NCBI GenBank assembly: GCA_017541025.1
Contig: JAFXZY010000069.1
Span: 1 to 44,211, forward strand
Length of the DNA stretch: 44,211 nt
Direction of reading: 5' to 3'
Origin: Bacteroidaceae bacterium
GTDB lineage: Bacteria; Bacteroidota; Bacteroidia; Bacteroidales; Bacteroidaceae
The translations under genes and the position numbers were made by a program. The notes below the pieces were generated by a model, which made no database searches, was not told the DNA's origin, and saw nothing but the letters and a program-made list of their open reading frames with translations. Shown in pieces: positions 4,940 to 44,141 of this stretch; within the stretch, counting starts at the first letter, position 1, and each line of letters opens with the position of its first letter.

Positions 4940-5871
4940 GGAAAAACGCCATCTTTTCAGTTATCGCAAAAGTTCCCGTTATCGTCATTGTATTCGTTAA
5001 CGTTTTCATTAGCCTTCCGCTCCGCGCTCAAGAGCTGAATGCAAGGGTGAACATCAACTACACTCAGATAGAGACCACGAAGACGGATGTTTTCCCGAAA
5101 CTTCAGACTACCATAGAGGAATTCCTGAACAACCACAAATGGACAGAGATTGCTTTTCGCGAAAACGAGAAGATTCAGTGCAATTTCAATATCACGGTCA
5201 ATGAGTATGATGTAAACGAAAATACATTTAAGTGCACCTTGCTGATGTCAAGCAACCGACCCGTCTTTAATAGCAGCTACAATACGGTATGTTATTCGGT
5301 GAACGACAGAGAGTTTGTTTTCAAGTTCACGGAATTCGACCAAATAGAATACCAAGAGAATCAGATTAACAACAACTTGGTGGCACTGCTTGCCTATTAC
5401 GCCTATATGATAATAGGTATGGATCTGGACACCATGTCGCCTAAAGGTGGCACAGCCTGCTTCCAGACAGCGGAAAACATTGTGTCAGCTGGACAGAACC
5501 TCGACTTTCCTGGTTGGAAGGCCTTTAGTGATTCAGGCAACCGCTTTGGACTGCTGAACGACTATATCGACGGAGCACTGGAATGTATGCGTGATTTCCA
5601 GTACATCTATCACAGGAAAGGCCTGGACCAGATGGCAGAGAATCCAGATACTGCCAGAGCTGCCATTACAGAAGGGTTGGATTTACTGCTTCAGGCACAC
5701 AAAGCCAAGAACATGACCAAGGTTGCTCAGCTTTTCTCGGAATACAAAAGACAGGAACTGGTGAATATCTATTCAGGGAAAGGAACCACCGAAGAGAAAA
5801 ACAAGGCCTACGATGTTCTCTTTGCCATTGATGCCTCTCAGGATCAAGAATGGCAGAAAATAAAGAAGTAA
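4936..5871 (+). CDS. DUF4835 family secreted protein (possible type IX secretion factor)
   Basis: The product has 311 residues. An N-terminal hydrophobic stretch, with IVIVFVNVFISLPLRAQ ending near residue 32, looks like a signal peptide, so the protein is exported. The rest (NARVNINYTQIETT, then the KWTEIAFRENEKIQCNFNI block and a C-terminal helical region) matches DUF4835, a Bacteroidetes-only family normally encoded between coaBC and recN, exactly as here. Some annotation schemes link this family to the type IX secretion system (PorD); I treat that as unconfirmed. The ATG overlaps the coaBC stop by 4 bases and recN begins 6 bases after its stop. Confidence 0.85.
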   Translation: MRKNAIFSVIAKVPVIVIVFVNVFISLPLRAQELNARVNINYTQIETTKTDVFPKLQTTIEEFLNNHKWTEIAFRENEKIQCNFNITVNEYDVNENTFKCTLLMSSNRPVFNSSYNTVCYSVNDREFVFKFTEFDQIEYQENQINNNLVALLAYYAYMIIGMDLDTMSPKGGTACFQTAENIVSAGQNLDFPGWKAFSDSGNRFGLLNDYIDGALECMRDFQYIYHRKGLDQMAENPDTARAAITEGLDLLLQAHKAKNMTKVAQLFSEYKRQELVNIYSGKGTTEEKNKAYDVLFAIDASQDQEWQKIKK

Positions 5872-5877
5872 AACCTT

Positions 5878-7548
5878 ATGCTTAAGCATCTTTATATCAG
5901 AAACTTTGCTCTCATCCAGGAGTTGGATATTGATTTCCATTCGGGCTTCTCCGTTATTACAGGTGAAACAGGTGCAGGAAAGTCCATCATGTTGGGAGCC
6001 ATCAATTATCTCTTAGGGCAAAGAGCAGATATAAAGAGTATACTGCCTGGTGCCGACAAATGCACCATAGAGGCCACCTTCGGTATTGAGGGCTATAACC
6101 TTAAAGCCCTGTTCGAGGAGAATGACACAGACCTTGATGAAAACGAATGCATCATCCGACGCGAGTTTACCTCCAACGGCAAGAGCCGTGCCTTTGTGAA
6201 CGACACGCCTGCCAATCTGAATTTCCTAAAAGAATTGGGCTACCACCTAATAGATATCCATTCCCAACACCAGAATCTGCTTATTGCTAAAGAGGATTTC
6301 CAACTGCATATCCTTGACGTGATAGCTCAGGACAACACGCAACTTCAGGAATACCGCAGCAGTTTTAGCGACTACAAGCAAGCCGAACAGGAACTGAAGA
6401 ATGCTAAAGACATTCTGGCTCAGTCAAAGGCAGAAGAAGATTATCTGCGTTTTCAGTTGGAACAACTGGAGGAGCTGAATCCCAAGGCCGGAGAAGACGA
6501 AGAACTGGAGGAAGAGCAAAATGAGTTAAGTCATGCAGAGGAGATAAAAACCATCCTTTATAAAGTCGATTCACAATTCAGCAACGACAACGAACAAGGC
6601 GGTGTTATCGAGTTACTAAAACATATCAGTCAGGACATAGAGTCCCTTACCCACGTATATCCTGTGATCGAGGAATACGGCAAACGTATTGAAAGCGCCC
6701 TCATAGAGCTAAAAGATATTAGTTCAGAACTCGGTGATTTGGCAGAGAGAATTGAATACAATCCTGCAAGACTGAACGAAGTAAACAACCGGCTTGACCA
6801 ATTATATACGTTAGAGAAGAAACATGATGTAAAGTCGGCAGCCGAGTTGGAGACCTTCATGAAGGATTTAAGGCAGAAACTGGACGTTATCAGCAACGGT
6901 GAAGAAAAAATTGAAGAACTGAAACAGGCTGTTCATGAGAAATTAGCCAAAGCAACAGCCTTAGCAGAGCGATTGAGCGAAAAAAGAGCCGAAGCCGCAA
7001 AAGAGGTGGAAGTCTCTATTTGCCAAATGCTGACTCAGTTGGATATTCCCAATAACAGATTTGAGGTGAAGATAGAAAAGAACCTTCAACTCACAGAAAA
7101 AGGAGCCGATCAGGTAACCTTCTTCTTCTCTGCCAATAAAAATACGGCCCCAAGAGCCATTTCAGAAGTAGCCAGCGGTGGTGAGATAGCCCGACTGATG
7201 CTCGCCTTAAAAGCCATCACCAGCAAAAGGGAGAATCTTCCCACCATCATATTCGATGAGATAGATACGGGTGTCAGCGGAAAAGTAGCTTCGTCTATGG
7301 CCAACCTGATGAAGGAAATGACAGCCGCCAATAAGCATCAAGTTATAACTATTACGCACTTACCCCAAATAGCTTCATGCGGAGCAACACATTACCGAGT
7401 TTACAAGGAAGATACAGACGAACAGACATTCAGTCATATACGAGAACTGACACATGAAGAACGGGTTACAGAAATTGCTCACATGCTCAGTGGAAATGAG
7501 ATTTCAGAAGCCGCCGTCCTGAATGCTAAACAATTGTTGAAACAATGA
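5878..7548 (+). CDS. recN: DNA repair protein RecN (SMC-like ATPase)
   Basis: This 556-residue protein is the SMC-like ATPase RecN, which acts at double-strand breaks together with RecA. The head domain is split between the two ends: the Walker A motif GETGAGKS is at residues 29-36 and the signature/Walker B region (ASGGEIARLMLALKAI, then TIIFDEIDTGVSGK) is in the last quarter. Between them lie two long Glu/Lys/Leu-rich coiled-coil stretches (about residues 150-230 and 300-370). Length is typical. It sits in the coaBC-DUF4835-recN order usual for Bacteroidetes and its TGA overlaps the next ATG by 4 bases. Confidence 0.97.
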   Translation: MLKHLYIRNFALIQELDIDFHSGFSVITGETGAGKSIMLGAINYLLGQRADIKSILPGADKCTIEATFGIEGYNLKALFEENDTDLDENECIIRREFTSNGKSRAFVNDTPANLNFLKELGYHLIDIHSQHQNLLIAKEDFQLHILDVIAQDNTQLQEYRSSFSDYKQAEQELKNAKDILAQSKAEEDYLRFQLEQLEELNPKAGEDEELEEEQNELSHAEEIKTILYKVDSQFSNDNEQGGVIELLKHISQDIESLTHVYPVIEEYGKRIESALIELKDISSELGDLAERIEYNPARLNEVNNRLDQLYTLEKKHDVKSAAELETFMKDLRQKLDVISNGEEKIEELKQAVHEKLAKATALAERLSEKRAEAAKEVEVSICQMLTQLDIPNNRFEVKIEKNLQLTEKGADQVTFFFSANKNTAPRAISEVASGGEIARLMLALKAITSKRENLPTIIFDEIDTGVSGKVASSMANLMKEMTAANKHQVITITHLPQIASCGATHYRVYKEDTDEQTFSHIRELTHEERVTEIAHMLSGNEISEAAVLNAKQLLKQ

Positions 7549-9224
7549 AAAAATATCTTATTATACTCCTTTATACATTATTATATATTGTTCCATCTCA
7601 GGCACAATCTCCCAAATGGTTGAAAAAAGTGAGAGGTGCGCAGGTAGCCGTAATGGTTTACAATAAAAGTGGCGAGATGAAGGAAATACAAGGCGTTTTT
7701 TGTGATGAGCAAGGAACACTACTCACAGAATATGATGCCCTGAAACTCGCTACGCGAGCCGTAGTAGTAGATACAAACGGAAAAGAATATCCGGTAAAAG
7801 AAATCTTGGGTGCTAACGCTATGTATAATGTCGCTAAATTGCAGGTTGAACCTCAGAAAGATAAAATTACATATCTGAATCCCACATCAGTAGCGACTCA
7901 GGAAAAGAGCACAGTATACATTCTACCGAACATTAAAGCAGGCAAGAATGCACAATGTACAGCGGATGCCATTACTAAAGCAGAAACGTTTAAGGAAACC
8001 TATTATTACTATACCCTCGGCAGCCCTGCAAATGAACGGCTGCAAAACAGTGCCGTACTGAACGAGAATGGTGAAATGATAGGTTTGCTTCAGTTGGCAG
8101 CAAAGGAAGGAAACAATGCATACGTTATTGACGGCAAATTTATTGCCGACCTGAAGATAAAGGCCATGGATGCAGGTAACAACGATCTGAAAGCCATCTA
8201 CATAAAAAAAGCCCTTCCTGAAACAGAAGATGATGCATTGACCTACCTGTATCTATTGGATAGAAAAGACAGCAGCACATTCATGGCAAACGTTGAGGAA
8301 TTTATCCTGAAATACCCCACAAACACTTCAGGCAGGATATTGAAAGCAGAAAGCTTAATTGAATCAGGCAAATGTGCTGAAGCCGACAAGATTTATGCAG
8401 AAGCCCTAAACACAGACGGCATCAACAAAGATGAAGTGCTTTATTCAAAAGCCAAGGCAATTTATTCACTGAATCTGAACAAGGCATATAATAAATATAA
8501 CGATTGGGATATGGAAAAGGCATTGGAAGAGACAAAGAATGCCTACAATTGCAATCCATTGCCCATATATACACAACAAGAAGCCAACTGTCTTTTTGTA
8601 CTGAAACGCTACGAAGAGGCATACGAAAAATTTCTCTCTTTGACAAAAACCAACCTGCGTTCTTCTGATGTGTTTCTAAATGCTGCCCAATGTCTGATTA
8701 TCCAGAATAAGGAAGAAGGTGTGCTTGAATTACTCGACAGCGCCCTTGCCTGTTATAGCAAACCTTACCCTTTAGCCGCTGCCAATACTATTCTGATACG
8801 AGCAGACTATTTAGCAAAAGCAGACAAAAACAAAGAAGCTGTGTTGGGGCTGAATGAATATGAGCGCTTGGCTGGAGGCAACCTGAATGCTAACTTCTAC
8901 TATGGAAGAGAACAGTTGGAGATAAAAGCTCGCATGTATCCTCAAGCACTCTCCGACATAGAAAAAGCTATGTCGCTTGAGCCAAAAGAACCCCTGTACT
9001 ATGTAGAGGCAGCAGCCCTTAACTACAGGATAGGACAATTGGATGATACCATTGAATATGCGAAGAAGGCCATTGCCATAGATGACAAGTTCCCTGATGC
9101 CTACCGCATTATAGGTGTCTGCTACAATCAGAAAGGCAATAAGGCCGAGGCCAAGAAATTCTTACAAAAGGCCGTCGACTTGGGTGACACCTTAGCTTCG
9201 GGCATTATTGACAAAATGAAGTGA
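7545..9224 (+). CDS. Exported pseudoprotease-TPR protein
   Basis: The 559-residue protein starts with a signal peptide (MKKYLIILLYTLLYIVPSQAQ). Residues 25-210 look like a trypsin/HtrA-like double beta-barrel (GVFCDEQGTLLTEYDAL, KEILGANAMYNVAKLQV, VLNENGEMIGLLQLA), but the catalytic His and the GNSGG-type Ser loop are not present in recognisable form (the position reads LQNSAVLNENG), so the fold is probably inactive. From about residue 220 to the end there are multiple tetratricopeptide repeats, the clearest being PQALSDIEKAMSLEPKEPLY and DAYRIIGVCYNQKGNKAEA. A scaffolding role in the cell envelope is likely. It overlaps recN by 4 bases and the GTG start of tilS overlaps its stop. Confidence 0.75.
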   Translation: MKKYLIILLYTLLYIVPSQAQSPKWLKKVRGAQVAVMVYNKSGEMKEIQGVFCDEQGTLLTEYDALKLATRAVVVDTNGKEYPVKEILGANAMYNVAKLQVEPQKDKITYLNPTSVATQEKSTVYILPNIKAGKNAQCTADAITKAETFKETYYYYTLGSPANERLQNSAVLNENGEMIGLLQLAAKEGNNAYVIDGKFIADLKIKAMDAGNNDLKAIYIKKALPETEDDALTYLYLLDRKDSSTFMANVEEFILKYPTNTSGRILKAESLIESGKCAEADKIYAEALNTDGINKDEVLYSKAKAIYSLNLNKAYNKYNDWDMEKALEETKNAYNCNPLPIYTQQEANCLFVLKRYEEAYEKFLSLTKTNLRSSDVFLNAAQCLIIQNKEEGVLELLDSALACYSKPYPLAAANTILIRADYLAKADKNKEAVLGLNEYERLAGGNLNANFYYGREQLEIKARMYPQALSDIEKAMSLEPKEPLYYVEAAALNYRIGQLDDTIEYAKKAIAIDDKFPDAYRIIGVCYNQKGNKAEAKKFLQKAVDLGDTLASGIIDKMK

Positions 9225-10513
9225 TAGAGAAGATAAGAGAATACATAGAGGCAAATCAGATATTCAGCCAGGAAGGGTTGGTTCTTGTGGGAGTAAGCGG
9301 AGGGGCAGATTCTGTCGCTCTTCTGTTAATCCTGAAAGACTTAGGTTACCATATTCAGGCTCTTCATTGCAATTTCCACCTCAGGCAGGAAGAATCAGAC
9401 AGGGACGAGCAATTTGTCTCAGAACTTTGCAAGAAAAATAGCATTCCCTTACTGATAAAGAATTTTGATGCCAAAGAATATGCTGTAAGGAACAGCATTA
9501 GCATTGAGATGGCTGCCAGAGACCTCAGATATAAATGGTTCTACGAAGTACAGTCACAAACCAACGCTCAATGTATTGCTGTTGCCCATCACAAAAACGA
9601 CCAGGCAGAAACACTGCTGCTGAACTTAATCAGAGGAACAGGAATACGTGGTCTGGCAGGTATGTACCCCATACGGAACAAAATAGCACGCCCCCTTCTC
9701 TGCGTTACTCGTCAGGAGGTGATTGACTATCTGGCTCAAATAAAACAAGCCCATGTTACCGACAGCACCAATATGAAGAAAGATGCCACAAGGAACAGAA
9801 TCCGCATGGACATCTTACCGCTTTTAGCTGCAATAAATCCTAACATTATCAATACGCTTTCTGAAACTTGCAGTATTATGATGTCAAGCATTCCCTTTTA
9901 TGATCAGGCTGTTCAAGAGGAACTGAAACAAGTGAAAGCAAATGATGCAGAACTTAACATCAGGGCATTACTGGAAAGCAAGAATTCTGCCGTTATAATA
10001 TATGAATGGCTGAAAGACAAAGGATTTACCAATTCACAACAAACGGAGATTGCAAAATCACTAGGTAGTACATCGGGTAAAATATGGGAAAGCAAGACGC
10101 ACCGTCTTTTAAAGGATAGGAACAAGCTAATTCTTCAAGAGAATAATAAGGAAGCCTTAGTGCCACAAATTATACAAGAAGAGGTTGACCATATTTCTGA
10201 AACCGGTCCCGGCATAGCCTACTTTGATAAAGAAAAAATCACTTCACCCATCACCTATCGGAGAGCAAGGGAAGGTGATTGGTTTATTCCCTTTGGCATG
10301 AAAGGGAAGAAATTGATAAGTGACTATCTTACAGATGTTAAAGCTACCAGATTCGAAAAAGAAAGACAAATTCTTGCCCTATGCGGCGAAGACGTTATCT
10401 GGGTAGTCGGGCACAGGTCCGACAACAGGTACCGGGTGGATGAGAATACCCGTCGGATACTACGTTTAAGAGCCCCTCTCCCCGATCCTCCCCCAAATGG
10501 GAGGGAGTCTTAG
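9221..10513 (+). CDS. tilS: tRNA(Ile)-lysidine synthetase
   Basis: TilS attaches lysine to C34 of the CAU-anticodon tRNA-Ile so that it reads AUA. The 430-residue product carries the PP-loop ATP pyrophosphatase motif SGGADS at residues 26-31, HCNFHLRQEESDRDEQFV, AVAHHKNDQAETLLLNLIRGTGIRGL, and a C-terminal TilS domain (ITYRRAREGDWF, KKLISDYL). The start is GTG at 9221, whose GTGA overlaps the stop of the TPR gene; no better ATG precedes the PP-loop. The last dozen codons (APLPDPPPNGRES) do not look like TilS and are encoded by a GC-rich interspersed repeat (10472-10509), so the natural C-terminus has been replaced or extended by the repeat. Confidence 0.96.
   Translation: MIEKIREYIEANQIFSQEGLVLVGVSGGADSVALLLILKDLGYHIQALHCNFHLRQEESDRDEQFVSELCKKNSIPLLIKNFDAKEYAVRNSISIEMAARDLRYKWFYEVQSQTNAQCIAVAHHKNDQAETLLLNLIRGTGIRGLAGMYPIRNKIARPLLCVTRQEVIDYLAQIKQAHVTDSTNMKKDATRNRIRMDILPLLAAINPNIINTLSETCSIMMSSIPFYDQAVQEELKQVKANDAELNIRALLESKNSAVIIYEWLKDKGFTNSQQTEIAKSLGSTSGKIWESKTHRLLKDRNKLILQENNKEALVPQIIQEEVDHISETGPGIAYFDKEKITSPITYRRAREGDWFIPFGMKGKKLISDYLTDVKATRFEKERQILALCGEDVIWVVGHRSDNRYRVDENTRRILRLRAPLPDPPPNGRES
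10472..10509. repeat. GC-rich short interspersed repeat, copy 1 (end of tilS)
   Basis: This C-rich element of about 38 bases (GCCCCTCTCCCCGATCCTCC followed by the complement of its own beginning) contains a short imperfect hairpin. Its reverse complement aligns with the elements at 16610-16641 and 23262-23290. It supplies the final codons of tilS. Confidence 0.7.
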
Positions 10514-10614: not shown

Positions 10615-11721
10615 ATGAGTATGATAAAATGCCCCGAATGTGGCGAGAGAGTGTCTACGATGGCTGGCACATGTCCACATTGTGGAATTAAGATTGCAGG
10701 AAACCTGAAACAATGTCCCAACTGTAATGAATACTGCCTGAATTCTCAGGACAGGTGTCCCTACTGCGAAACTACCCTGTCCGTAGTTACAGAAGAAGTT
10801 GTTGACCATCAAGTGGAGGACACGACTTCTCCCACAGAAACACAGGAAAGGCCCGCCAAGAAAAGCAACAAAACCCTTATATTCTCTATAACTTTCGCGG
10901 TACTTCTAATCATAATCTTTGGCGGACTGTTTTATCTTGACTATAAAAACAGCGCCGAAAGGGAGGAAGCAGAATTTTCTAGACTTGAGAACACCTCCAA
11001 CCCCGAATACTATAACGACTTCCTTGCAAAATATCCCAAAAGCAAACATTATCAGGAGGTTAAAGAGCGTCTGAATGTTCTGTTGGACGAAACAGAAGAA
11101 TGGGAAAAGATGCTTAAGAATATTGACCGTTCCGAAATTGAGAAGTTTATGAATGCCCACCCATACTCCAGACGACTGCAAATATGTAAGGATATGATAG
11201 ACTCCATTGATTGGAATGAAGCTACTAAATTGAACACCGAAGAGGCTTTTGTCAACTATCTGAATACACACCCTGATGGTAAATATGCAGAAGATGCCTC
11301 TCAGAAAAAGAACGAGTTAGGACTGATGAGGATTACCGTTCAGGATAAAGCCATCATAAGAAGTACTCTTGAAAATTTCTTTACCGTTGCCATGAGCCGA
11401 CAGGACGTTGCCCTTATCTCAGAGGCAATATCTGAGAAGATGGAAAACTTCTGTGGTACCCAAGACGCAACACCTGAACAGATTATTGCTTTCGCCAAGA
11501 GCAAGATGGCAGTCGATGTTATGGGATTCCATTATACAATCGGAGATAATTTCTCCGTTCGTAAGCAGACAATCTCTGACGGCACAACCGGATACGCCGT
11601 AGAGTTTACCCTGCAGGAAATTATTTCCCGATCAGATACCAATCAGCCAAACACTAAATCATACCAAGTATCCGCCCTTCTGAATGCAGACCATAAGATA
11701 GTTAGGATGAATATCAAATAG
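10615..11721 (+). CDS. Zinc-ribbon single-pass membrane protein
   Basis: The 368-residue protein has two N-terminal zinc ribbons: CPECG...CPHCG (residues 6-24) and CPNCN...CPYCE (about 34-53). An acidic linker precedes one transmembrane helix (TLIFSITFAVLLIIIFGGLFYL, near residues 85-106). The remainder is predicted to lie outside the membrane: a helical, TPR-like region containing YYNDFLAKYPKSKHYQEV and FVNYLNTHPDGKYAEDA, then a C-terminal alpha+beta domain of about 120 residues. Zinc-ribbon plus one membrane span plus a sensor-like outer domain is common in Bacteroidetes, but the function is unknown to me. It starts about 100 bases after tilS, so may have its own promoter; an A/T-rich leader is present but no clear TAnnTTTG. 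Confidence 0.75.
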   Translation: MSMIKCPECGERVSTMAGTCPHCGIKIAGNLKQCPNCNEYCLNSQDRCPYCETTLSVVTEEVVDHQVEDTTSPTETQERPAKKSNKTLIFSITFAVLLIIIFGGLFYLDYKNSAEREEAEFSRLENTSNPEYYNDFLAKYPKSKHYQEVKERLNVLLDETEEWEKMLKNIDRSEIEKFMNAHPYSRRLQICKDMIDSIDWNEATKLNTEEAFVNYLNTHPDGKYAEDASQKKNELGLMRITVQDKAIIRSTLENFFTVAMSRQDVALISEAISEKMENFCGTQDATPEQIIAFAKSKMAVDVMGFHYTIGDNFSVRKQTISDGTTGYAVEFTLQEIISRSDTNQPNTKSYQVSALLNADHKIVRMNIK

Positions 11722-11796
11722 TGCACTCTTTCATCGTTTAGATTACTTTTTCTGCACAAATAAATGAATTTTCTTCATAAAGCAGTTATTTTTAGC

Positions 11797-11804
11797 TAAT
11801 TTTG
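11797..11804 (+). promoter_or_regulatory. -7 element upstream of the glucosaminidase gene
   Basis: TAATTTTG matches TAnnTTTG and lies 20-25 bases before the ATGs at 11825 and 11828. It overlaps an upstream in-frame GTG at 11804, which argues against that GTG as the start. The -33 half is weak. Confidence 0.45.
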
Positions 11805-11824
11805 TGCCCGAAATTGAAAAACTG

Positions 11825-12748
11825 ATGATGAAGTCAAGGCTATTTAGTATCTTTTCGCTACTCTTGTTCTTGCATTTAACCATTTATGCTCAGAGGACAA
11901 ACCAAGCCTATTGGTCATACATAGACCAATATAAAGGTTTAGCCATAGAGCAGATGAAGAAACATCGCATCCCTGCCAGCATAACCTTAGCGCAAGGGCT
12001 GTTGGAAAGCGGAGCCGGACGGAGTACGCTGGCGACAAAGGCAAATAACCACTTCGGCATTAAGGTTAGCGGATACTGGACAGGACCATACGTTCTGAAG
12101 AACGATGATGCACCGAACGAGAAGTTCCGCAAATACAGGAATGCAAGAGAAAGCTACGAAGACCATTCCAAGTTCCTTCAGGGAAGACGCTATCAGGGAC
12201 TTTTTCAGTTAAAGATTACTGATTACAGAGGATGGGCAAGAGGTCTTAAAGCCGCTGGATATGCCACATCACCCACCTATGCCGAGTCTTTGATTAGAAT
12301 CATCGAAATGTATAACCTGTATCAGTTTGACACAGGAAAATACAATCAGGAGAAGAAAGTGGTGACCTCTGTCAGCAAGGCGCAGGACTCTTTCTTCCAG
12401 AAGCATACCGTTTACGCGCACAACAAGAATTATTTTATCATTGTGGAGATTGGTGACAACATGGCAACCATAAGCAAAGAAACAGGTGTTAGCCTGAAGA
12501 AGCTTTACCAATACAACGACCTTCCGCTTGATTATGCTCCTACGCAAGGAGATCTTATCTACCTGAAGAAGAAGCAGAAATGTGCCAGCAAGCAGTTTAA
12601 GAAGAACCCCATCCATATAGTGGAACAAAACCAAAGTCTGTTTGACATCTCTCAGCTTTACGGCATTCGCCTGAAGTACCTTTATAAAATGAATGATTTC
12701 ACCCCGTCGCACGAGATTAAGCCAGGCGACATTATTAGGATAAGATAA
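11825..12748 (+). CDS. Secreted N-acetylglucosaminidase (GH73-type) with LysM repeats
   Basis: This protein of about 307 residues hydrolyses the peptidoglycan glycan chain. It starts with a signal peptide (MMKSRLFSIFSLLLFLHLTIYAQ), followed by a glucosaminidase domain with the motif ASITLAQGLLESGAGRSTLA, where the Glu of LLESGAG is the likely catalytic acid, then NNHFGIK and YEDHSKFL. The C-terminal third holds two LysM modules (around KNYFIIVEIGDNMATISKETG and HIVEQNQSLFDISQLYG) that bind peptidoglycan. The double ATG at 11825/11828 was chosen because upstream codons overlap a promoter element. The next gene, an ABC-F ATPase, starts 12 bases after the stop. Confidence 0.9.
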   Translation: MMKSRLFSIFSLLLFLHLTIYAQRTNQAYWSYIDQYKGLAIEQMKKHRIPASITLAQGLLESGAGRSTLATKANNHFGIKVSGYWTGPYVLKNDDAPNEKFRKYRNARESYEDHSKFLQGRRYQGLFQLKITDYRGWARGLKAAGYATSPTYAESLIRIIEMYNLYQFDTGKYNQEKKVVTSVSKAQDSFFQKHTVYAHNKNYFIIVEIGDNMATISKETGVSLKKLYQYNDLPLDYAPTQGDLIYLKKKQKCASKQFKKNPIHIVEQNQSLFDISQLYGIRLKYLYKMNDFTPSHEIKPGDIIRIR

Positions 12749-14377
<1,629 letters not shown>

Positions 14378-14422
14378 CTGACAAAGTAGCAATTGGCACA
14401 CTTTTTGTAAAACATTTGTCAG
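14378..14422 (+). promoter_or_regulatory. Inverted repeat in the grpE upstream region
   Basis: CTGACAAA (14378-14385) and TTTGTCAG (14415-14422) are perfect 8-base complements, 29 bases apart, between the ABC-F stop and the grpE start. It is not a CIRCE element. It could be an operator for the grpE-dnaJ unit or chance; no other evidence is visible. Confidence 0.3.
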
Positions 14423-14441
14423 AACAAATATATACAAGAAA

Positions 14442-15023
14442 ATGAGCGAAGAATTGAAGAACAAAGAACAAAAAGAGCAGCAAGAGCCTCAGGAGACTAC
14501 TGCCAATGCTCAGACTGAAACAGATACAGAAAAAGAGGTTGGTCAGGAAACAGAGAAAGAACTTTCTGTGGAGGAGCAGTTAGAGGCTTCCAAAAAGGAG
14601 ATTGAAGAACTGAATGATAAACTTCTTCGTAAGATTGCCGAGTTTGACAATTACCGCAAGCGTACCCTCAAGGAAAAGACTGAGCTTATCCTGAATGGCG
14701 GAGAGAAAACCATTGTGGCTATCCTTCCCGTAATAGATGATATGGAACGCGCACTCAAGAACATGCAGAATGCTGATAATGTGACTGCCGTACTTGAGGG
14801 CGTAGAACTTATCTACAAGAAGTTTATGGATATACTTGGCAAGCAGGGTGTCAGTGTTATAGAAACCAAAGATGCCGACTTTGACGTAGATATCCATGAA
14901 GCCATTGCCCAATTGCCTGCTCCCACAGAAGAACTGAAGGGAAAAGTGATGGATTGCACTCTTACCGGTTACAAGTTGAATGATAAGGTAATCCGCCACT
15001 CTCAGGTGGTAGTAGGAGTGTAA
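14442..15023 (+). CDS. grpE: Nucleotide exchange factor GrpE
   Basis: GrpE releases ADP from the Hsp70 chaperone DnaK. This 193-residue protein has a Glu/Gln/Thr-rich disordered N-terminus (about residues 1-40), a long coiled-coil (EEQLEASKKEIEELNDKLLRKIAEFDNYRKRTLKEK), then the family block AILPVIDDMERAL and the C-terminal beta domain (DIHEAIAQLPAP, GKVMDCTLTGYKLNDKVIRHSQVVVG). Length is normal. dnaJ follows after 90 bases, giving the usual grpE-dnaJ pair; dnaK is not in the window. Confidence 0.97.
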   Translation: MSEELKNKEQKEQQEPQETTANAQTETDTEKEVGQETEKELSVEEQLEASKKEIEELNDKLLRKIAEFDNYRKRTLKEKTELILNGGEKTIVAILPVIDDMERALKNMQNADNVTAVLEGVELIYKKFMDILGKQGVSVIETKDADFDVDIHEAIAQLPAPTEELKGKVMDCTLTGYKLNDKVIRHSQVVVGV

Positions 15024-15032
15024 TAAGTAATG

Positions 15033-15106
15033 CATAATTCACAATTCACAATTAAGCTATGCCATATAACTGAACACATGAATTATGAATTATAATTATG
15101 AATTGA
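15033..15106. repeat. AATTATGAATT-type inverted repeat between grpE and dnaJ
   Basis: The left arm (15033-15053) carries tandem AATTCACAATTCACAATT and the right arm (15079-15105) tandem GAATTATGAATT/AATTATGAATTG units in the opposite sense, so the transcript could form an A/U-rich hairpin. The same kind of A/T-rich 9-10 bp repeat is frequent between genes in Prevotella-like genomes. Confidence 0.6.
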
Positions 15107-15113
15107 TATAACT

Positions 15114-16283
15114 ATGGCAGAGAAAAGAGATTACTATGAGGTCCTTGGCGTAGCAAAGAACGCCTCTGACGCAGAAATAAAAGCAGCCTACAAGAAGATG
15201 GCCATCAAATATCACCCAGATCGCAATCCGGGTAATAAAGAGGCCGAAGAAAAGTTCAAGGAGGCTGCCGAAGCATACGATGTGCTGCGCGACCCACAGA
15301 AACGCCAGCAGTACGACCAGTTCGGATTTGCCGGAATGGGCGGACAAGGTGGTTTCGGTGGAGCCAGCATGAATATGGATGATATATTCTCTATGTTCGG
15401 AGACATCTTTGGAGGCCATGGCGGATTCGGAGGCTTTGAGGGCTTTAGCGGATTCGGAGGCTTTGGCGGAGGTAGTGCCGGTCATAAGACCTACAAAGGA
15501 GCCGACCTTCGTCTGAAAGTTCGTCTTACACTCGAAGAAGTGGCCACCGGCGTTACCAAGAAGTTTAAAGTTCGTAAGCATGTTACCTGTACGGCATGTA
15601 ATGGTACTGGAAGTGCTGACGGTAAGAAAGAAACCTGTTCTCAGTGCAAGGGTTCCGGAAGCATTTACAAAACCATCAATTCTATGTTTGGTCGCATGCA
15701 GACGCAAACAGTTTGCCCTTCATGTAACGGAACTGGGAGTGTAATAAAGAACAAATGCCCCAAATGTAACGGCGAAGGTGTTGTAAATGGCGAAGAAATT
15801 ATCGAGGTTGCTATTCCTGCAGGTGTTGAAGACGGGATGGTTGTAACGGCAAGTGGAAAAGGGCATGCAGGAAAGCAAAACGGAGTACCAGGGGATATTC
15901 AGGTCTTCATCGAGGTAGAACCGCACAAGGAACTTCTGCGAAACGGACAAAATCTTGAATATAACCTCCTGTTGGATGTCCCAACAGCTGTTCTTGGTGG
16001 CTCTGCAGAAGTACCTACTATCGACGGTAAAGTTAAGATAAAGATTGAGCCGGGAACACAACCAGGAAAAGTGATGCGCTTGCGTGGCAAAGGTCTTCCT
16101 GCCGTTTCAGGTTACGGCTATGGTACCGGAGATTTGATTGTTAATATCGGTGTTTATGTTCCTCGCAATTTAAGCAAGGAGGAGCGTGAGATGTTCGAAA
16201 AGATGTCCGGAAGCGAAAACATGAAACCCCAAGCCGACGAAAAGGAAAGTTTCTTTAGGAAATTTAAAAAAATGTTTGAATGA
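15114..16283 (+). CDS. dnaJ: Chaperone DnaJ (Hsp40)
   Basis: DnaJ delivers unfolded substrates to DnaK and stimulates its ATPase. The 389-residue product is a complete class I Hsp40: J domain at residues 1-70 with the HPD motif (YHPDRNPG), a Gly/Phe-rich linker (about 75-125), a zinc-binding domain with four CxxCxGxG repeats ([32 protein letters not shown]) and the C-terminal substrate-binding domains ([22 protein letters not shown]). It follows grpE and its TGA overlaps the folC ATG by 4 bases. Confidence 0.98.
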
Positions 16284-23470: not shown

Positions 23471-23839
23471 TTTCTTCAGTTGACAGTTGACAGTTTCTGT
23501 TTCAGGAAATGTATACAGTATACAGTTTGTTTTTCACAAAAACGACTCAGATATCAGTTATATCAGATATCAGTTTCTTTTTTTGAGTTTTAGACGTGGA
23601 TTGGCCAAAGCATCCATATTACTTACTATTTAATATATACTATTATATATAATAATATTATATAATAATATAGTATAGTATATAATTAATAATAATAATA
23701 ATATAATGTATAAGAACAAATGCTGCGGCCTCATTTTTCATTTTTGGAAACTGATATCTGATATCTGATTCCAAAAACCTGTTTTCAAAAACAAAACTGT
23801 CAACTGTCAACTGAAGAAACTGTATACTGTATACTGTAT
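23471..23839. repeat. Composite array of inverted 7-bp tandem repeats
   Basis: Three kinds of 7-bp tandem repeats occur on the left side as CAGTTGA x2 (23477-23493), CAGTATA-type (23511-23526) and CAGATAT-type (23548-23573), and return in inverted sense on the right as CTGATAT x2 (23751-23768), CTGTCAA x2 (23797-23813) and CTGTATA x2-3 (23820-23838). The CAGTTGA pair extends to about 26 bases of exact complementarity with its flanks (TTTCTTCAG... to ...CAGTTT). The middle (23617-23711) is almost pure A/T. No intact gene lies here. Confidence 0.75.
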
Positions 23840-33906: not shown

Positions 33907-33953
33907 CAGTTTATAAGAACCTTTCCCAAACCAGAAAAATCTTTTTTTCCAAT

Positions 33954-34100
33954 CACAAAACATTCTTTTTCGGCAGAAAAAATTATTTTCATGGCGTGAA
34001 AATTTATTTTCAAAGCTTGATAATATATTTTCAAGGCATGAAAATAAATTTTCAAAGCCTGAAAATAGTTTTTCCACGAGGGATAAAATATTTTCTCGGC
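33954..34100. repeat. Seven exact-period 21-bp repeats with phased A/T tracts
   Basis: Seven units start at 33954, 33975, 33996, 34017, 34038, 34059 and 34080, each exactly 21 bases. Most have the form TGAAAAT(N)2-4ATTTTCAARGC, so each holds an A-tract and a T-tract about half a unit apart. Because 21 is divisible by 3, all six frames read as 7-residue repeats, and long open frames across this region on both strands are a by-product rather than genes. It lies in the 364-base gap between pyrC and dinD, which otherwise holds only a -7 element near 34208. Confidence 0.85.
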
Positions 34101-34207
34101 TACGAGTACCAGGACACAAATACTGGCAAATCCCAGGTTTTCTGTACAAGTGGGGCATAGAAATAATAATAGTTTTAGTAAGTACATTATAAATCGAAGA
34201 ACTTTTG

Positions 34208-34215
34208 TATATTTG
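34208..34215 (+). promoter_or_regulatory. -7 element upstream of the dinD-like gene
   Basis: TATATTTG matches TAnnTTTG and lies 56 bases before the ATG. An AAGGAG is present at about 34240 but is too far from the start to act as its ribosome site. No LexA-like palindrome was recognised. Confidence 0.45.
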
Positions 34216-34270
34216 TAGCTGAAAAAGAAGAATTGGCAACAAGGAGTTAACTTACAGAAAATGATTAATT

Positions 34271-35101
34271 ATGGATATACAGAAAATACAACAATACAAA
34301 TCTGCCTTCGACTTGATAGCAAAGGACATCAAGGATGATGAAGGGAACTCTATCGATGTATGGTATGCACGTGAGTTGCAACAAGTGTTAGGCTATGCGC
34401 GATGGGAAAATTTCGTGGTAGCCATTGGTCGCGCTATGGAATCGTGTAAAACACTGGGAATCAGTATTGACGACCATTTTCGTGAGGTCACGAAAATGGT
34501 CCAACTTGGTAGTGGCTCACAGCGCGAAGTTCAAGACTTTATGCTTACCCGTTATGCCTGTTACTTGATAGCTCAGAATGGCGACCCAAAGAAAGAAGAA
34601 GTAGCTTTTGCACAAAGTTACTTTGCTGTCCAGACTCGCAAGGCTGAACTTATCGAAGAACGATTAAATGAAGTGGCGCGTCTGAATACCCGTGAACGCT
34701 TACGAGCCTCTGAAAAGCAGTTAAGTCGCAACATTTACCAACGTGGAGTAGATGACCGTGGCTTTGGGCGTATCCGTTCCAAAGGAGATTATGCCCTGTT
34801 TGGTGGGCTTTCAACAGACCAAATGAAAAAACGGTTGGGAATCAAAAGCGGTGCTTTGGCAGACTTTCTACCCACATTAACGATTGCCGCCAAGAACCTT
34901 GCCACGGAAATGACCAATTACAACGTGGAACAAAAAGACCTCTATGGTGAAGCAAGCATCACAGCTGAGCACGTACAGAACAATCGTAGTGTTCGTGGTA
35001 TGTTGGGCCAACGCGGAATCAAGCCAGAGGAACTTCCACCTGCAGAGGATATTAAAAAAGGTAGAGCGACGTGTAGCCAAAGACGAAAAAAGCATGCTTA
35101 A
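34271..35101 (+). CDS. dinD: DinD-like DNA-damage-inducible protein, C-terminus frameshifted
   Basis: The 276-residue reading frame matches the DinD family, whose E. coli member is induced by the SOS response and inhibits RecA filaments. Shared blocks are VWYARELQQVLGYARWENF (a BRO-N-like start), DDHFREVTKMVQLGSGSQREVQDFMLTRYACYLIAQNGDPKKEEVAFAQSYFAVQTRKAEL, GLYGGL-like ALFGGLSTDQMKKRLGI, and EELPPAEDIKK. After EDIKK the frame continues with an unrelated, Arg/Cys-rich 11-residue end. Removing one A from the A6 run at 35054-35059 gives KVERRVAKDEKSMLKESQKL and a stop at 35133-35135 that overlaps the next ATG, which looks like the ancestral end. The protein may still work, as most of the domain is intact. 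Confidence 0.85.
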   Translation: MDIQKIQQYKSAFDLIAKDIKDDEGNSIDVWYARELQQVLGYARWENFVVAIGRAMESCKTLGISIDDHFREVTKMVQLGSGSQREVQDFMLTRYACYLIAQNGDPKKEEVAFAQSYFAVQTRKAELIEERLNEVARLNTRERLRASEKQLSRNIYQRGVDDRGFGRIRSKGDYALFGGLSTDQMKKRLGIKSGALADFLPTLTIAAKNLATEMTNYNVEQKDLYGEASITAEHVQNNRSVRGMLGQRGIKPEELPPAEDIKKGRATCSQRRKKHA

Positions 35102-35131
35102 AGAATCTCAAAAACTACCAAAAGATAGCGA

Positions 35132-35779
35132 ATGATGAGCAACAAAGAACCTGGATACGTTTACATACTGACAAATCCAAGCTTTAGGGAGGATTGGGTG
35201 AAAATTGGCAAGAGTTCCCGTCCTGTGGATGTGAGAAGCAAGGAACTGGATAATACTGCCGTTCCTTTGCCCTTCGAGATATTTGCCACGATGAAGACTA
35301 CGAAATACAACGAAGTGGAGAAGTTGGTGCACAAAACTATTGATCGCCTTACTGACTTGCGCATTCGCCAAAACCGTGAGTTCTTCAATGTTGCTCCGCA
35401 AATGGCTCTCGACATTTTCCGCGATATAGCAATGACGATAGATGATGCAGAAGTAACCCTTTACGAAGACAACAAGCCAATAGTGGAAAGCGGATGCAAG
35501 GAACCACAGAAACGAGAGGTGAAGCGCCCTCGTTTCAAGTTCTCTATGTGTGGCATTAAGATTGGCGAGCAAGTCACATTCGACCCAACAGGTATTGTTG
35601 TAAAGGTCGCATCCGATGACAGCATCGAATACGAAGGCCGCATCTATAAACTCTCCCCCTTCGTTGGCACGTTTATGCCAGAAGAACATCGCAATACCTC
35701 TGGTGCCTATCAAGGTGCCAAGTATTTCTCATATAATGGGAAAGTGTTGGATGAGATTAGGAAAGAAAAAGAAATTTAG
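35132..35779 (+). CDS. GIY-YIG (T5orf172-type) nuclease-like protein
   Basis: A 215-residue protein with an N-terminal GIY-YIG-like domain of the T5orf172/MUG113 type: GYVYILTNPS (residues 8-17), WVKIGKSSRPVDVRSKEL (from 22), NEVEKLVHKTIDRL and QNREFFNV. These small domains are related to homing and phage nucleases. The C-terminal part (about 125-215), with RPRFKFSMCGIKIGEQVTFDPTGIVVKV and YQGAKYFSYNGKVLDEI, is a small basic beta-rich module often attached to such nucleases. It overlaps the restored dinD end by ATGA, so the two genes appear translationally linked. Function may be phage defence or repair; unproven. Confidence 0.8.
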   Translation: MMSNKEPGYVYILTNPSFREDWVKIGKSSRPVDVRSKELDNTAVPLPFEIFATMKTTKYNEVEKLVHKTIDRLTDLRIRQNREFFNVAPQMALDIFRDIAMTIDDAEVTLYEDNKPIVESGCKEPQKREVKRPRFKFSMCGIKIGEQVTFDPTGIVVKVASDDSIEYEGRIYKLSPFVGTFMPEEHRNTSGAYQGAKYFSYNGKVLDEIRKEKEI

Positions 35780-35936
35780 ATGTAAGCAAGGATTCTTTCG
35801 ATAACATTATTGAAAAAGAAAAAGTTGAAGAGCAAAACAGAAACTCAATCCATCAATCAGTGATAATACATACGGAAACAAGATGATGAAAGTTGATGTA
35901 GTAATTGTATTCGATTATAAATAATATAGAAAGAAA

Positions 35937-37928
35937 ATGACACGAGATTTTTTTGATAATATTCGATTTAAAATAGAGACAAATCTTCCTCGCGAGCTTG
36001 TTGCTTCAGCAAAGTTTATGTTTGATACTATGATGTTCCAAAAAGAGCTTCTGAAACATCTGGGGTATGAAAACATTGCTCCATTTCATGAAAATGGGAG
36101 ATGGTTCTTCCAAAAAGATGGGAAATTTAATGTGTTAGATAATTTTGCCCAAAAATCTTATATATCGTATTCCCATTTACAAGGTGACATATTATTATGT
36201 TTGGATAATGATGGTTATCACTATTGCGAGCCATCTAATAAAGGTGAAGTAAAGTCCTATAAGCCCAAAGATGGGAAATATTTCTTTTTATGGGGGAATG
36301 ATAGTGATGACCAATATACTGAGTTGAAATACCTGGATTTTTACGATAAAGAATTTAGTGAAGATGTTTTTGATTTTGTACAAGAAGAAAACTATGTGGC
36401 CATTAATTATCACAAGAAAAAGCAATATGCAAAAGCTCATATGAGTGAGGTTGAAAGATGGGTGGAAAAGCCGCTGATGGACACAATAATTTCAAGGGAA
36501 AAAGATATTTGTCATATAGGAGTTTTTACTTATTACTTCGGCAATAAGATTGTCGTATATGATGGAGATGAATTGATTGTTTATGACAAGGATTTTAACA
36601 TATTGTATGAAAGTTATTGTGATTTTGAAATTTGGGAGGTGAATTCAATTTCCTATCTTTTATTTCCATATGATGGATTAGCGTATGAACTCTCGGAAGG
36701 TAAAGAAATAGAGATTCCTGAAGGTGACGAATGTCAATGGGGTTTTGCGAAAACATATAAAGATATTGTGGTTTTATATGAAAAAAATCATTTTCCTATA
36801 CAAGATTATTATGATGACGAAGATGATTGGAGCTTTGAATCCCAAGAAACACCTGTTAGGAACACTATTGGACATGTATTTGATGCATCTTTTAAATTAC
36901 TTAGAAAATTCAATGTTGTTGGAGAAATCTCTACAATAAAAGAAATTGGGGGCACCATTGTAATGAAAGTAAACTCTTCTCTTATTGAAGACAATGATAC
37001 AGATGCCTATTATAATGTTAAAGGGACAGATATTACTCGTCATAATGATAAAACCGATGAGGATTTCTCCATTCCCGATATCTCTTTCAGACATATGCTA
37101 GGATATGAGGATTTGTTTGTTGTTAAAACAAAAGTGCCCTCTTCTGACGTCATAGATTTTACGAAAGGTACAAAGGAACATTATATGATAGAAAAGTGTG
37201 GCGTGTATCACATGGAAAATTGGCATGAGGAGAAATACAAAAAGATAATAGATTGTAAATATGATTACATCAAGTCATTGCCTATCGAAGACGATGAGAA
37301 TGTATATTATGTAGGTGTTATTGGCAAAGATGAGGATAACACATGTGATTTGTTTATTAATCATAAAATAAAACTTCAAGGCATCCCTTTTAATAAGGGC
37401 TATTCAATAAGAGTCTTAGAAAACAAGAAGTTCATAAAATTCACAAATTTCGCTGGTAATGTTGGGATTATCAGAGAAGGAAAGTTTGTTTTAGAGCCAT
37501 TGTACCAAGACGTTAAAGTTTATATCGAGCGAACTTTAGATTATTCGCAAGAATCAAAATTGAAGTTTTTGTTTGTCGTCTCTGATGGCGAATCATATGG
37601 TATTTGTTCTCCGTCTGGGAAGTTAATTCTTCCAATAGAATATTCAACGATTGACATGGATGATAATTTATGTATTATCTTAGATAAATATGATGAAGAT
37701 AACATTGAAATTGGTTGGTATGATGAAGAACATGATTCGATCGTTCATGAAACAGCTGAAATGGAAGATGGGATGGTTCTTTTAGATGATGAGGGGGATT
37801 ACATATGGGATGGACAATTTAGATATACAAAAGAAGACCGAGGAACAGGTTGGGAAAACTATTCTCGCGAGGATTCCATATACGATGCTCTTGGCGGGGA
37901 AATGGATGCTATTTGGAATATCGATTAA
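35937..37928 (+). CDS. Large AT-rich WG-repeat protein of unknown function
   Basis: The 663-residue product has no signal peptide or membrane helix. The N-terminal part (about 1-130) is not recognised. From about residue 130 the sequence is beta-rich, and the last third holds repeats of WG type: KIIDCKYDYIKSL, VGIIREGKFVLEPLYQDV and YGICSPSGKLILPIEYSTI, the pattern of WG/KWG repeat proteins. Asp, Glu and Tyr are very abundant and the gene is clearly richer in A/T than its neighbours, suggesting horizontal transfer. It begins 157 bases after the GIY-YIG gene; that gap has no strong promoter or repeat. I do not know its function. Confidence 0.75.
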   Translation: MTRDFFDNIRFKIETNLPRELVASAKFMFDTMMFQKELLKHLGYENIAPFHENGRWFFQKDGKFNVLDNFAQKSYISYSHLQGDILLCLDNDGYHYCEPSNKGEVKSYKPKDGKYFFLWGNDSDDQYTELKYLDFYDKEFSEDVFDFVQEENYVAINYHKKKQYAKAHMSEVERWVEKPLMDTIISREKDICHIGVFTYYFGNKIVVYDGDELIVYDKDFNILYESYCDFEIWEVNSISYLLFPYDGLAYELSEGKEIEIPEGDECQWGFAKTYKDIVVLYEKNHFPIQDYYDDEDDWSFESQETPVRNTIGHVFDASFKLLRKFNVVGEISTIKEIGGTIVMKVNSSLIEDNDTDAYYNVKGTDITRHNDKTDEDFSIPDISFRHMLGYEDLFVVKTKVPSSDVIDFTKGTKEHYMIEKCGVYHMENWHEEKYKKIIDCKYDYIKSLPIEDDENVYYVGVIGKDEDNTCDLFINHKIKLQGIPFNKGYSIRVLENKKFIKFTNFAGNVGIIREGKFVLEPLYQDVKVYIERTLDYSQESKLKFLFVVSDGESYGICSPSGKLILPIEYSTIDMDDNLCIILDKYDEDNIEIGWYDEEHDSIVHETAEMEDGMVLLDDEGDYIWDGQFRYTKEDRGTGWENYSREDSIYDALGGEMDAIWNID

Positions 37929-38026
37929 TATACATGGATGCGTATTTAGAAATGAAGAATCATGGGAAGGTTCTACTGATCATTCCGAAATAATTGATTA
38001 ACCTTGCAAGAAATAGGAGAATGAAC

Positions 38027-38977
38027 ATGAACGAATATAACTATATAGAAGAGGAACAAGGTGACATGTTGGCATGTGAGTCTTCATCATGGGGAGGACT
38101 GTGGACAGAAGAGAAGCTGGATGCGTTTGAGAAATATGTTAATGCATATCTCACAATCATGAATTCCTATAAAGAGAAGTATGATTGGAAGCTTATCTAT
38201 TTTGACGGGTTTGCAGGGAGTGGTTCCTGAAATGAAGCTAAACAAGATGTAAACTCTGAGCTTATGCTTGAATTATTCAAAGACAGTTGTATTGACAACG
38301 AACAGTTGAATACGTATAAGGGTGCAGCGGAGAGAGTTCTTAGCATATCTCAGAAAGGTTTTGATTATTATTATTTTGTTGACAAGGACAAAGAGTCGAG
38401 CCTGAAACTACATGAATTGTTGGCGCCATTTGAGAATGACAAAGTATTAGTGTACAGAAATTCTGATGCAAATAAGCAAATAGAGATGCTTGCAGAAGCA
38501 ATGAAGAAAGACAACAATCTGGCGGCTTTAGTTCTGTTGGACCCATTCGGGATGCAAGTTGATTGGAAATCAATAGAGCTTTTGAAAGGAACTCGGACAG
38601 ACTTATGGATACTGATTCCTACAGGTGTCATTGTTAATAGATTACTTGACAGGAAGGGAGAGCTTACTCATATAGAGAAACTGACATCGTTCTTTGGCAA
38701 AGATGAGAACTTCTTACGAGACTATTTCTACAAGAAAAGAACCGTAGAAACATTATTTGGAGAAACAGAAATTGTAGAGAAAGTAAAACAACCAATAGAA
38801 AAAATTGCAAAGTTGTATATCGAACAACTTGGAAAGATTTACAAACACTTCACAGATAAGCCATTGGTATTATGTAATTCCAGACATACACCGATATTTC
38901 ATTTTGCGTGTGCTTCAAATAATCCTACTGCAATAAAAATAGCGAAACAAATAATCAACAAAAAGCAAGGGGTATGA
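38027..38977 (+). pseudogene. tcmP: Three-Cys-motif partner protein TcmP, interrupted by in-frame TGA
   Basis: A single reading frame of about 316 codons matches TcmP, the partner always found beside Gp37/Gp68-type three-Cys-motif proteins. A ribosome site AGGAGA (38015-38020) favours the ATG at 38027. The frame has a Rossmann-like motif IYFDGFAGSGS, then a TGA at 38228-38230, and continues in the same frame with NEAKQDVNSELMLEL, LVLLDPFGMQVDWKSIELL, TDLWILIPTGVIVNRLL and NSRHTPIFHFACAS. FDGFAGSG and DPFG resemble methyltransferase motifs I and IV. The stop falls next to motif I, so two fragments (38027-38230 and 38264-38977) would result. The end overlaps the next ATG by 4 bases. No frameshift is present; a point mutation is the simplest cause. 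Confidence 0.75.
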
Positions 38978-39711
38978 AAACAACAAAGATAGAATGGACG
39001 GATAAAACTTGGAATCCTATAACAGGATGTACTAAGAAATCTACTGGCTGTGCTCATTGCTATGCAGAGGTAATGGCAAGGAGGCTGAAAGCTATGGGAT
39101 TAGAGAAGTATCGGAACGGCTTTGGACTGACATTACATGAGGAAGATTTGGAGGAGCCTATGCAATGGAAGAAATCTCATAATATCTTCGTTTGCTCTAT
39201 GAGTGACCTTTTCCATGAAGATGTGCCTTTTGAGTTTGTTGACAAAATAATGAATACCATAGCAAAAACTCCACAACATAGATATCAGATTCTTACGAAA
39301 AGAGCTGAACGGATGGCAGAATATTTCAAGAGGCATCTTATTCCAAACAATGTTTGGTTAGGCGTAACAATCGAATGTAAGAATACTAAATCTCGCATTG
39401 ATTTTCTTCGTCATCTTGGTGCAACAGTCAAATTTCTTTCGTGTGAACCTTTGGTGGAGGACTTGGGGGAGATGGACTTAAATGGAATAGACTGGGTTAT
39501 TGTTGGTGGCGAAAGCGGGCCAAAAGCAAGACCTATGCAACCTGAGTGGGTTATCAATATCAAACAACAGGTGGAGCATCAAGGTGCAGCTTTCTTTTTT
39601 AAACAATGGGGAACATGGGGAAGTGATGGCATCAAGCGTAACAAACATGCCAATGGAAAGTTATTACTTGGTGAGGTTGTTCAACAAATGCCTGATAAGA
39701 AAGTCTGTTAG
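38974..39711 (+). CDS. Phage Gp37/Gp68 family three-Cys-motif protein (radical-SAM-like)
   Basis: A 245-residue protein of the DUF5131/Gp37-Gp68 family. The N-terminus KIEWTDKTWNPITGCTKKSTGCAHCYAEVMARRL contains the three cysteines (19, 26 and 29) in the spacing of this family, thought to bind an iron-sulfur cluster as in radical-SAM enzymes. Other blocks are ICV-like FVCSMSDLFHEDVP, YQILTKRAERM, NVWLGVTIE, FLSCEPLVEDLG and DWVIVGGESGPKARPMQPEWV. The gene overlaps the tcmP stop (ATGA), the usual paired order, though tcmP is broken here. The pair is widely spread on mobile DNA; its reaction is unknown. It ends the accessory island. Confidence 0.9.
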   Translation: MKTTKIEWTDKTWNPITGCTKKSTGCAHCYAEVMARRLKAMGLEKYRNGFGLTLHEEDLEEPMQWKKSHNIFVCSMSDLFHEDVPFEFVDKIMNTIAKTPQHRYQILTKRAERMAEYFKRHLIPNNVWLGVTIECKNTKSRIDFLRHLGATVKFLSCEPLVEDLGEMDLNGIDWVIVGGESGPKARPMQPEWVINIKQQVEHQGAAFFFKQWGTWGSDGIKRNKHANGKLLLGEVVQQMPDKKVC

Positions 39712-39857
39712 CATAAGACAAACAATTCTTTCTTTTTTGGGGGGGCTATCCTTTTATAGGGAACACATGTATATAATGTTTCAGGAAAGGAAAACTGTAG
39801 TTTCAAATAATGTAGTTAAAATATCATTTTTTTAAGGTCTGATAAGGAATAATGCTG

Positions 39858-44103: not shown

Positions 44104-44131
44104 AAACTTTAAACTTTAAACTTTAAACTTT
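44104..44131. repeat. Four tandem AAACTTT heptamers
   Basis: AAACTTT is repeated four times without interruption between the end of the glycine-rich gene and the FadL-like gene. TTTAAA dyads inside the array make it partly self-complementary. Confidence 0.7.
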
Positions 44132-44141
44132 ACTAGGACAC

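Follow-up and report, generated by a model that had tools for sequence, protein, structure and literature searches.

Several described systems resemble parts of the locus presented here. PADLOC holds candidate models for single genes of this kind (PDC-S13, PDC-S57, and PDC-M41/M30), and type IIG and type I restriction-modification (R-M) loci can carry accessory genes such as PrrC, DinD, RhuM, and Fic. A table in PMC12445080 groups SMa2245 (Hna) with SMa2243 (TcmP) in Sinorhizobium meliloti. The GIY-YIG type IV enzyme CMoRE combines, in the account of PMC12923530, an N-terminal GIY-YIG domain with a second, C-terminal domain. As outlined in PMC10448857, T5orf172 homing nucleases of phage islands lie at the borders of exchanged DNA, and ICP1 gp88 is presented in PMC8263062 as a T5orf172 nuclease with a neighboring Bro-N gene. 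Here we analyze a 44,211-nt stretch of a Bacteroidaceae bacterium (the window; contig JAFXZY010000069.1 of assembly GCA_017541025.1, our contig C4), taken from a 3.28-Mb genome of 95 contigs that is 84% complete. On its + strand, pyrC is followed by dinD, a T5orf172 (GIY-YIG) nuclease gene, a gene for a WG-repeat protein, tcmP, duf5131, and a serine hydrolase gene.

The locus differs from each of these systems. Four of its genes match PADLOC candidate models (PDC-S13 for dinD, PDC-S57 for the nuclease, PDC-M41A for tcmP, and PDC-M30B/M41B for duf5131), but they stand here side by side with an unmatched WG gene and two of them are damaged. The nuclease or dinD lies inside or ahead of R-M loci in some relatives, whereas the island of the window retains neither the methyltransferase nor the restriction enzyme of such loci. 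The Hna-TcmP region of pSymA also has tcmP and duf5131, there next to what is probably an anti-phage helicase; the window has no helicase, and duf5131 is convergent in S. meliloti. The GIYxY motif given for CMoRE in PMC12923530 is not found in the GYVYI...KIG of the window and we do not claim membership. In contrast to the phage T5orf172 islands and ICP1 gp88, as far as these are described, the window is part of a bacterial chromosome, it carries DinD in place of a KilAC protein, and the company consists of restriction loci.

Our results suggest that this is a mosaic accessory island of predicted anti-phage, restriction-type function that lies behind pyrC at a site of variable content and is built from modules of separate history, a reading to which we assign a probability of roughly 0.6. 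It is a defence-type accessory island and not a single five-gene system, and its sub-pairs are real. The families themselves were already known; what is new is their arrangement, the sharply bounded exchange of cargo, the nuclease scars, and the bracket formed by the nuclease and tcmP-duf5131.

Three relatives (G045, G054, and G056) carry nothing at this site: a convergent gene with a methionine-synthase activation domain (metH_act) lies at most 75 bases after pyrC. In G084, a single contig contains both genes with 10.6 kb between them, occupied by KAP ATPase (PDC-S20), HsdM, PrrC, HsdS, and HsdR genes and two small genes; in G051 the distance is 12.6 kb, and leucine-rich-repeat proteins and a rhamnosidase-like gene (by eye) intervene. 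An IetA-like ATPase is found near pyrC in G081, and pieces of HsdS and HsdM in G047, metH_act being on other contigs in both. Among the six sampled genomes nearest by pyrC (the window's own, G051, G081, G084, G045, and G047), the old neighbor is kept in one, and genes with defence-model matches stand at pyrC in four, the window included. The initial annotation had proposed to look for pyrC next to the serine hydrolase as the empty site; the empty site is instead pyrC-metH_act, and we rejected the former pair as ancestral since the hydrolase has other neighbors in the relatives shown. In the window's own genome metH_act is on a different contig, C77; a junction between this contig and the end of the window was rejected because metH_act there adjoins an rpsP-like gene, as in G081. 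The locus of RUG13701 (L167) reads dinD, nuclease scar, type IIG gene, a 563-aa gene, tcmP, and duf5131, followed on the right by a metH_act flank like that of G045. Because its contig begins just before dinD, we infer from this flank that it occupies the same site. Among 101 genomes of the genus, many of them incomplete, pyrC was found in 93, DinD in 26, the nuclease in 22, duf5131 in nine, and WG in two (own genome included). This patchy presence led us to reject vertical inheritance of the island, and the universal, vertically inherited gene order that would refute the proposal of the initial annotation was looked for and not seen in genomes of the genus or family.

The island is composed of blocks with different affinities. 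Relative to L167, dinD is identical at 816/861 positions and duf5131 at 721/738, tcmP agrees at 686/944, and the nuclease is also diverged. The match to G249 spans 35143 to 38025 and ends near the start of tcmP; identity is 454/540 in the body of the nuclease gene (35143-35682) and 2239/2247 over 35683-37929. Scars of the nuclease gene were found in related loci. In L167, its first 23 nt and last ~80 nt remain right after dinD. Only the 5' end remains in L015, L017, L023, L083, and L168 (in L083, a remnant of 49 nt at 84% that separates pyrC from the R-M operon in G084), and only the 3' end in L022, L030, and L263 (beside a second nuclease variant). A same-strand nuclease end is located upstream of duf5131 in L167, L168, L070, and L071, besides the window. 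Among loci whose duf5131 has an identity of 78% or more and for which no less than 4 kb of upstream sequence was available (5-14 kb), a nuclease or scar upstream is combined with tcmP-duf5131 downstream in 4/10 rows, which represent nine distinct loci since L076 and L169 appear to be the same contig. No such end was found in the 29 loci at 60-78% identity or the 23 below 60%, which form a weak control because these are distant taxa where a DNA query may fail. The cargo inside the brackets consists of a type IIG gene with the 563-aa gene, pAgo-like genes with weakly REase III-like ones, a type IIG gene with SpbK, or unassigned genes (L071); neither the 563-aa gene (L167) nor three of the L071 cargo genes gave a useful result with PADLOC.

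Of these genes, the nuclease is most clearly linked to restriction. Its relatives precede a type IIG gene in L070, L264, and L266 and an HsdM-like gene in L072 and L088, lie between HsdR- and HsdM-like genes in L272-L274 (named from BLAST matches of 25-31% identity), and stand ahead of WYL, AAA, HsdM, HsdS, and helicase genes on a Prevotella plasmid. Using home-made profiles, and with some nuclease loci being fragments or overlapping, we detected restriction genes within 1.5 kb of 11/36 nuclease loci compared with 2/29 pyrC loci (G084 and G047, in both of which the site is filled) and 0/24 serine hydrolase loci. Together with the PADLOC candidate matches, these neighbors agree with the initial annotation's proposal of a defence or DNA-modification locus. 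The expected recurrence of dinD next to the GIY-YIG gene was likewise observed: among 301 genomes of the family, the nuclease and DinD are each present in 40 (E up to 1e-20), 11 genomes have the two together, and in three they are adjacent (G000, G113, and G235, own genome included), overlapping by 4 bases in G235.

The coordinates of the island are listed below. As proposed, the accessory genes run in one direction between the end of pyrC at 33906 and the start of the serine hydrolase at 39852, and all five named families were recovered by profile (DinD NF008573, T5orf172 PF10544, TcmP TIGR04474, DUF5131 PF07505, and, borderline, WG PF14903). Of two proposed 4-base overlaps, that between the tcmP 3' piece and duf5131 (38974-38977) is present, and that between dinD and the GIY-YIG gene exists only in the frame used by relatives. 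A shift toward A/T in the WG gene was also borne out: G+C content is 0.487 in pyrC, 0.45 in dinD and the nuclease, 0.33 (0.331) in WG, 0.36 in the tcmP 3' piece, 0.40 in duf5131, and 0.46 afterwards. The start of the island at 33907 had to be moved. Positions 33979-34074 hold 4.6 tandem copies of a 21-bp palindromic unit, and we place this array outside the island because similar arrays occur at six further places in the same genome (seven in all); they are also found in other genomes (L128 and L154). The repeats were rejected as an island border for the same reason. By eye, and judged by the Bacteroidales consensus, the dinD leader presumably contains a promoter of that type.

Features of the island downstream of pyrC in the window
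Feature	Positions	Strand	Evidence or remark
dinD leader, common to other dinD loci	34093..34270	+	95% to L167; 34093-34247 83% to L127; each upstream of dinD
dinD (Bro-N; PDC-S13)	34271..35101	+	Departs from family frame after ~residue 263
T5orf172/GIY-YIG nuclease (PDC-S57), intact; C-terminal domain restriction-associated	35132..35779	+	PF10544, PADLOC
WG-repeat protein, 663 aa	35937..37928	+	DNA 99.75% identical in G249
tcmP 5' piece, to in-frame TGA	37994..38230	+	TIGR04474 40.6 bits (cut-off 53), PDC-M41A
tcmP 3' piece	38264..38977	+	TIGR04474 86.8 bits (cut-off 53), PDC-M41A
duf5131 (Gp37/Gp68 family), C-x6-C-x2-C motif, intact	38974..39711	+	PF07505, PADLOC

The nuclease matches PF10544 with 53 bits (cut-off 20) and PDC-S57 with 2e-73. 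Residues Y11, K24-I25-G26, R35, E63, H67, and E83, which we take to be catalytic, are conserved in 31/31 relatives chosen from the loci. A search of solved structures yielded nothing useful for this protein, and Pfam gave no match to its C-terminal domain of ~90 residues even at E values as high as 10. The same domain ends a protein of L016 with HSDR_N_2 and Mrr_cat above cut-offs and three proteins whose partners are sub-threshold: HSDR_N_2 in L024 and L026, and GIY-YIG plus EVE in L017. The N-terminal domain is fused to DUF4268 in two loci (L262 and L089), in the second of which Mrr_N is also present; all these matches exceed their cut-offs. Both domains are present in 19 distinct matches, the nuclease part only in 20, and the C-terminal part only in four; the 20 include end-cut copies (L040, the window's own, and L007), the shortened L071, and remote T5orf172 proteins. 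Such predicted modularity fits a restriction-type or a homing-type enzyme. Relatives were also found in 33 plasmid and 80 phage records. In L262, an 864-aa protein with an NPPY-like motif and no Pfam or PADLOC match is encoded behind dinD-nuclease (7157-9751).

A homing-type, recombination-driving nuclease is the alternative that survives best, although we consider it unlikely. Breaks made by the enzyme would allow neighboring cargo to be swapped, and the island would be the product of such exchange. Blocks indeed change at the edges of the nuclease gene: unbroken RUG13701-like DNA stops 23 nt into it, near-identity to G249 starts at ~35683 in its 3' part, related loci bear scars of its 5' end, 3' end, or both (L167), and PMC10448857 describes phage T5orf172 genes as flanking blocks that were exchanged. 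However, the nuclease is also found inside type I operons (L272-L274), the proposal comes without a known cut site, and the same picture would arise if conserved gene ends simply underwent homologous recombination of the ordinary kind. A related and similarly doubtful possibility is a cargo-exchange cassette, in which the nuclease (5') and tcmP-duf5131 (3') would bracket swappable defence cargo, and nuclease cuts repaired through conserved gene ends would drive swaps and leave scars.

The WG-repeat protein is probably the most recently exchanged part of the island. Its one, borderline WG repeat matches PF14903 with a score equal to the cut-off (25.6 bits) and no stretch passes alone. The gene differs from the copy of G249, a member of another genus, at 5/1992 nt and one residue; in G249 the next genes are a fragment of Bro-N and RhuM. 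Full-length relatives were found in 3/301 family genomes (own, G249, and G278, the latter at 55%), three more matches being short. A viral or plasmid source is unsupported, as no relative was found in plasmids or in viral contigs, where only close relatives are detectable. The C-terminus (37790-37925) ends in a tail like YDALGGxMDAxWNxD that is common to otherwise unlike proteins of L121 (724-1641), L288 (7844-8455), and L289 (7696-8334), the last two being alike.

DinD matches NF008573 with 336 bits (cut-off 242) and PDC-S13 with 2e-111; presumably, the family modulates RecA, which is a property of the E. coli protein. A search of solved structures gave nothing useful. The protein has 276 residues compared with 284-313 in nine relatives, with which it agrees up to ~residue 263, and its C-terminus is incomplete, the last ~13 residues being unlike theirs. 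In L274, a protein with Bro-N (below cut-off) and RhuM is encoded between HsdM- and HsdS-like genes (4974-6380) of a type I operon in which the nuclease is likewise encoded.

The initial annotation counted tcmP as one gene; the family is right, but the gene is not one open frame. A TGA at 38228-38230, a split left unmentioned, sits directly past the FAGSGS methyltransferase motif, whereas tcmP is intact in L070, L075, L167, L173, and others. The pair had also been described as radical-SAM-like (SAM, S-adenosylmethionine), a label that must be revised for both members. TcmP resembles class I methyltransferases, judging from the motifs Y-x-D-x-F-x-G-x-G and LDPFGM-like and a weak profile match to the solved putative methylase 2fhp (E 0.0015); its model has a predicted local distance difference test (pLDDT) of 85. 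DUF5131 matches PF07505 with 356 bits (cut-off 28.9) and has a C-x6-C-x2-C motif in 46/46 aligned and 80/80 viral proteins. The canonical radical SAM motif is CX3CX2C, in contrast to this unusual spacing, and TIGR04471 scores 107 bits versus a cut-off of 355. DUF5131 has no solved relative by sequence, and its model (pLDDT 91) shows alternating strands and helices.

The pair itself recurs widely. A neighbor from the tcmP cluster stands at 66 of 80 genome duf5131 loci, the best 80 of 572 confirmed matches, across phyla; the cluster was built by single linkage and 45/70 of its members match the TcmP profile directly. The nearest named relatives among these 80 are Bacteroidales/Prevotellaceae genomes, several labelled RUG, which we take to mean rumen genomes, probably. 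A tcmP-like gene lies within 300 bp of duf5131 in 23 of 80 viral contigs, the best 80 of 569 confirmed matches, and relatives of duf5131 are carried by 406 records of plasmids and 161 of phages. On pSymA, an 845-aa helicase-like open reading frame (ORF) is followed by TcmP, and a TcmP-like gene and DUF5131 are convergent. As the record carries no gene table, we infer that this ORF is probably SMa2245, the anti-phage helicase Hna. No functional study of the TcmP/DUF5131 pair was among the papers listed for these names in the literature collection searched. In L170, a 1566-aa ORF lies downstream of tcmP-duf5131 (11365-16065).

These features suggest how a mosaic defence island might operate with three modules: dinD, the nuclease with the WG protein, and the tcmP-duf5131 pair. 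The nuclease would cut foreign DNA, its C-terminal domain setting or sensing the target. It may be modification-dependent, like a type IV enzyme, because this domain elsewhere joins restriction-nuclease domains and a weakly scored EVE domain. DinD would act on the breaks made by the nuclease or regulate the module. TcmP, methyltransferase-like, and DUF5131, with three cysteines and possibly radical-SAM-like, would jointly modify a nucleic acid; the break in tcmP probably leaves the pair inactive in the window. The WG protein would be the newest cargo, taking the place that restriction enzymes have in relatives and most likely serving in binding or as an effector.

Several observations weigh against an anti-phage island. 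Protection from phages is, for every family here, a prediction from sequence, and WG is the only island gene without a PADLOC match. In G278, the neighbors of the WG gene are unassigned or housekeeping genes, and the 19 kb covered there contain no match to the nuclease. The pyrC site is not exclusively used for defence because G051 carries leucine-rich-repeat genes there. The suggested co-occurrence with restriction genes holds for the nuclease (11/36) but is weak at 1.5 kb for dinD (2/36) and duf5131 (0/8); at up to 8 kb, restriction genes were found near 12/80 duf5131 loci, a count with no matched control. Clustering of known defence genes at this variable site, as in a defence island, is observed, weakly so for these two genes at 1.5 kb. 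In addition, 57/80 viral contigs have no tcmP-like gene within 300 bp of duf5131. Finally, the damage to dinD and tcmP, a frame change and a stop, could be assembly error instead of biology.

The same damage, with the nuclease scars of related loci, would fit a decaying, non-functional remnant of accessory genes retained by chance. We regard this as quite improbable: the nuclease, WG, and duf5131 frames are open, and WG was gained or lost recently (5/1992 nt). The idea that all five genes act as a unit draws on their common strand, tight spacing, the tcmP/duf5131 overlap, and the bracket in 4/9 other close loci, but a single five-gene system is very improbable given that no other genome among the 101 of the genus and 301 of the family carries all five, full-length WG is rare, block identities and histories differ, and tcmP is broken.

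Gene-by-gene swapping of defence cargo at one chromosomal spot would make the turnover of defence islands testable, because block edges are sharp and nuclease scars remain. Our results also tie the candidate PDC-S57 nuclease to restriction loci, assign it an unnamed restriction-associated domain, and place tcmP-duf5131 beside what is probably a proven anti-phage gene (Hna). Elsewhere in the window, AT-rich and 7-bp tandem repeats were observed at 23627-23707 and 44104-44132.

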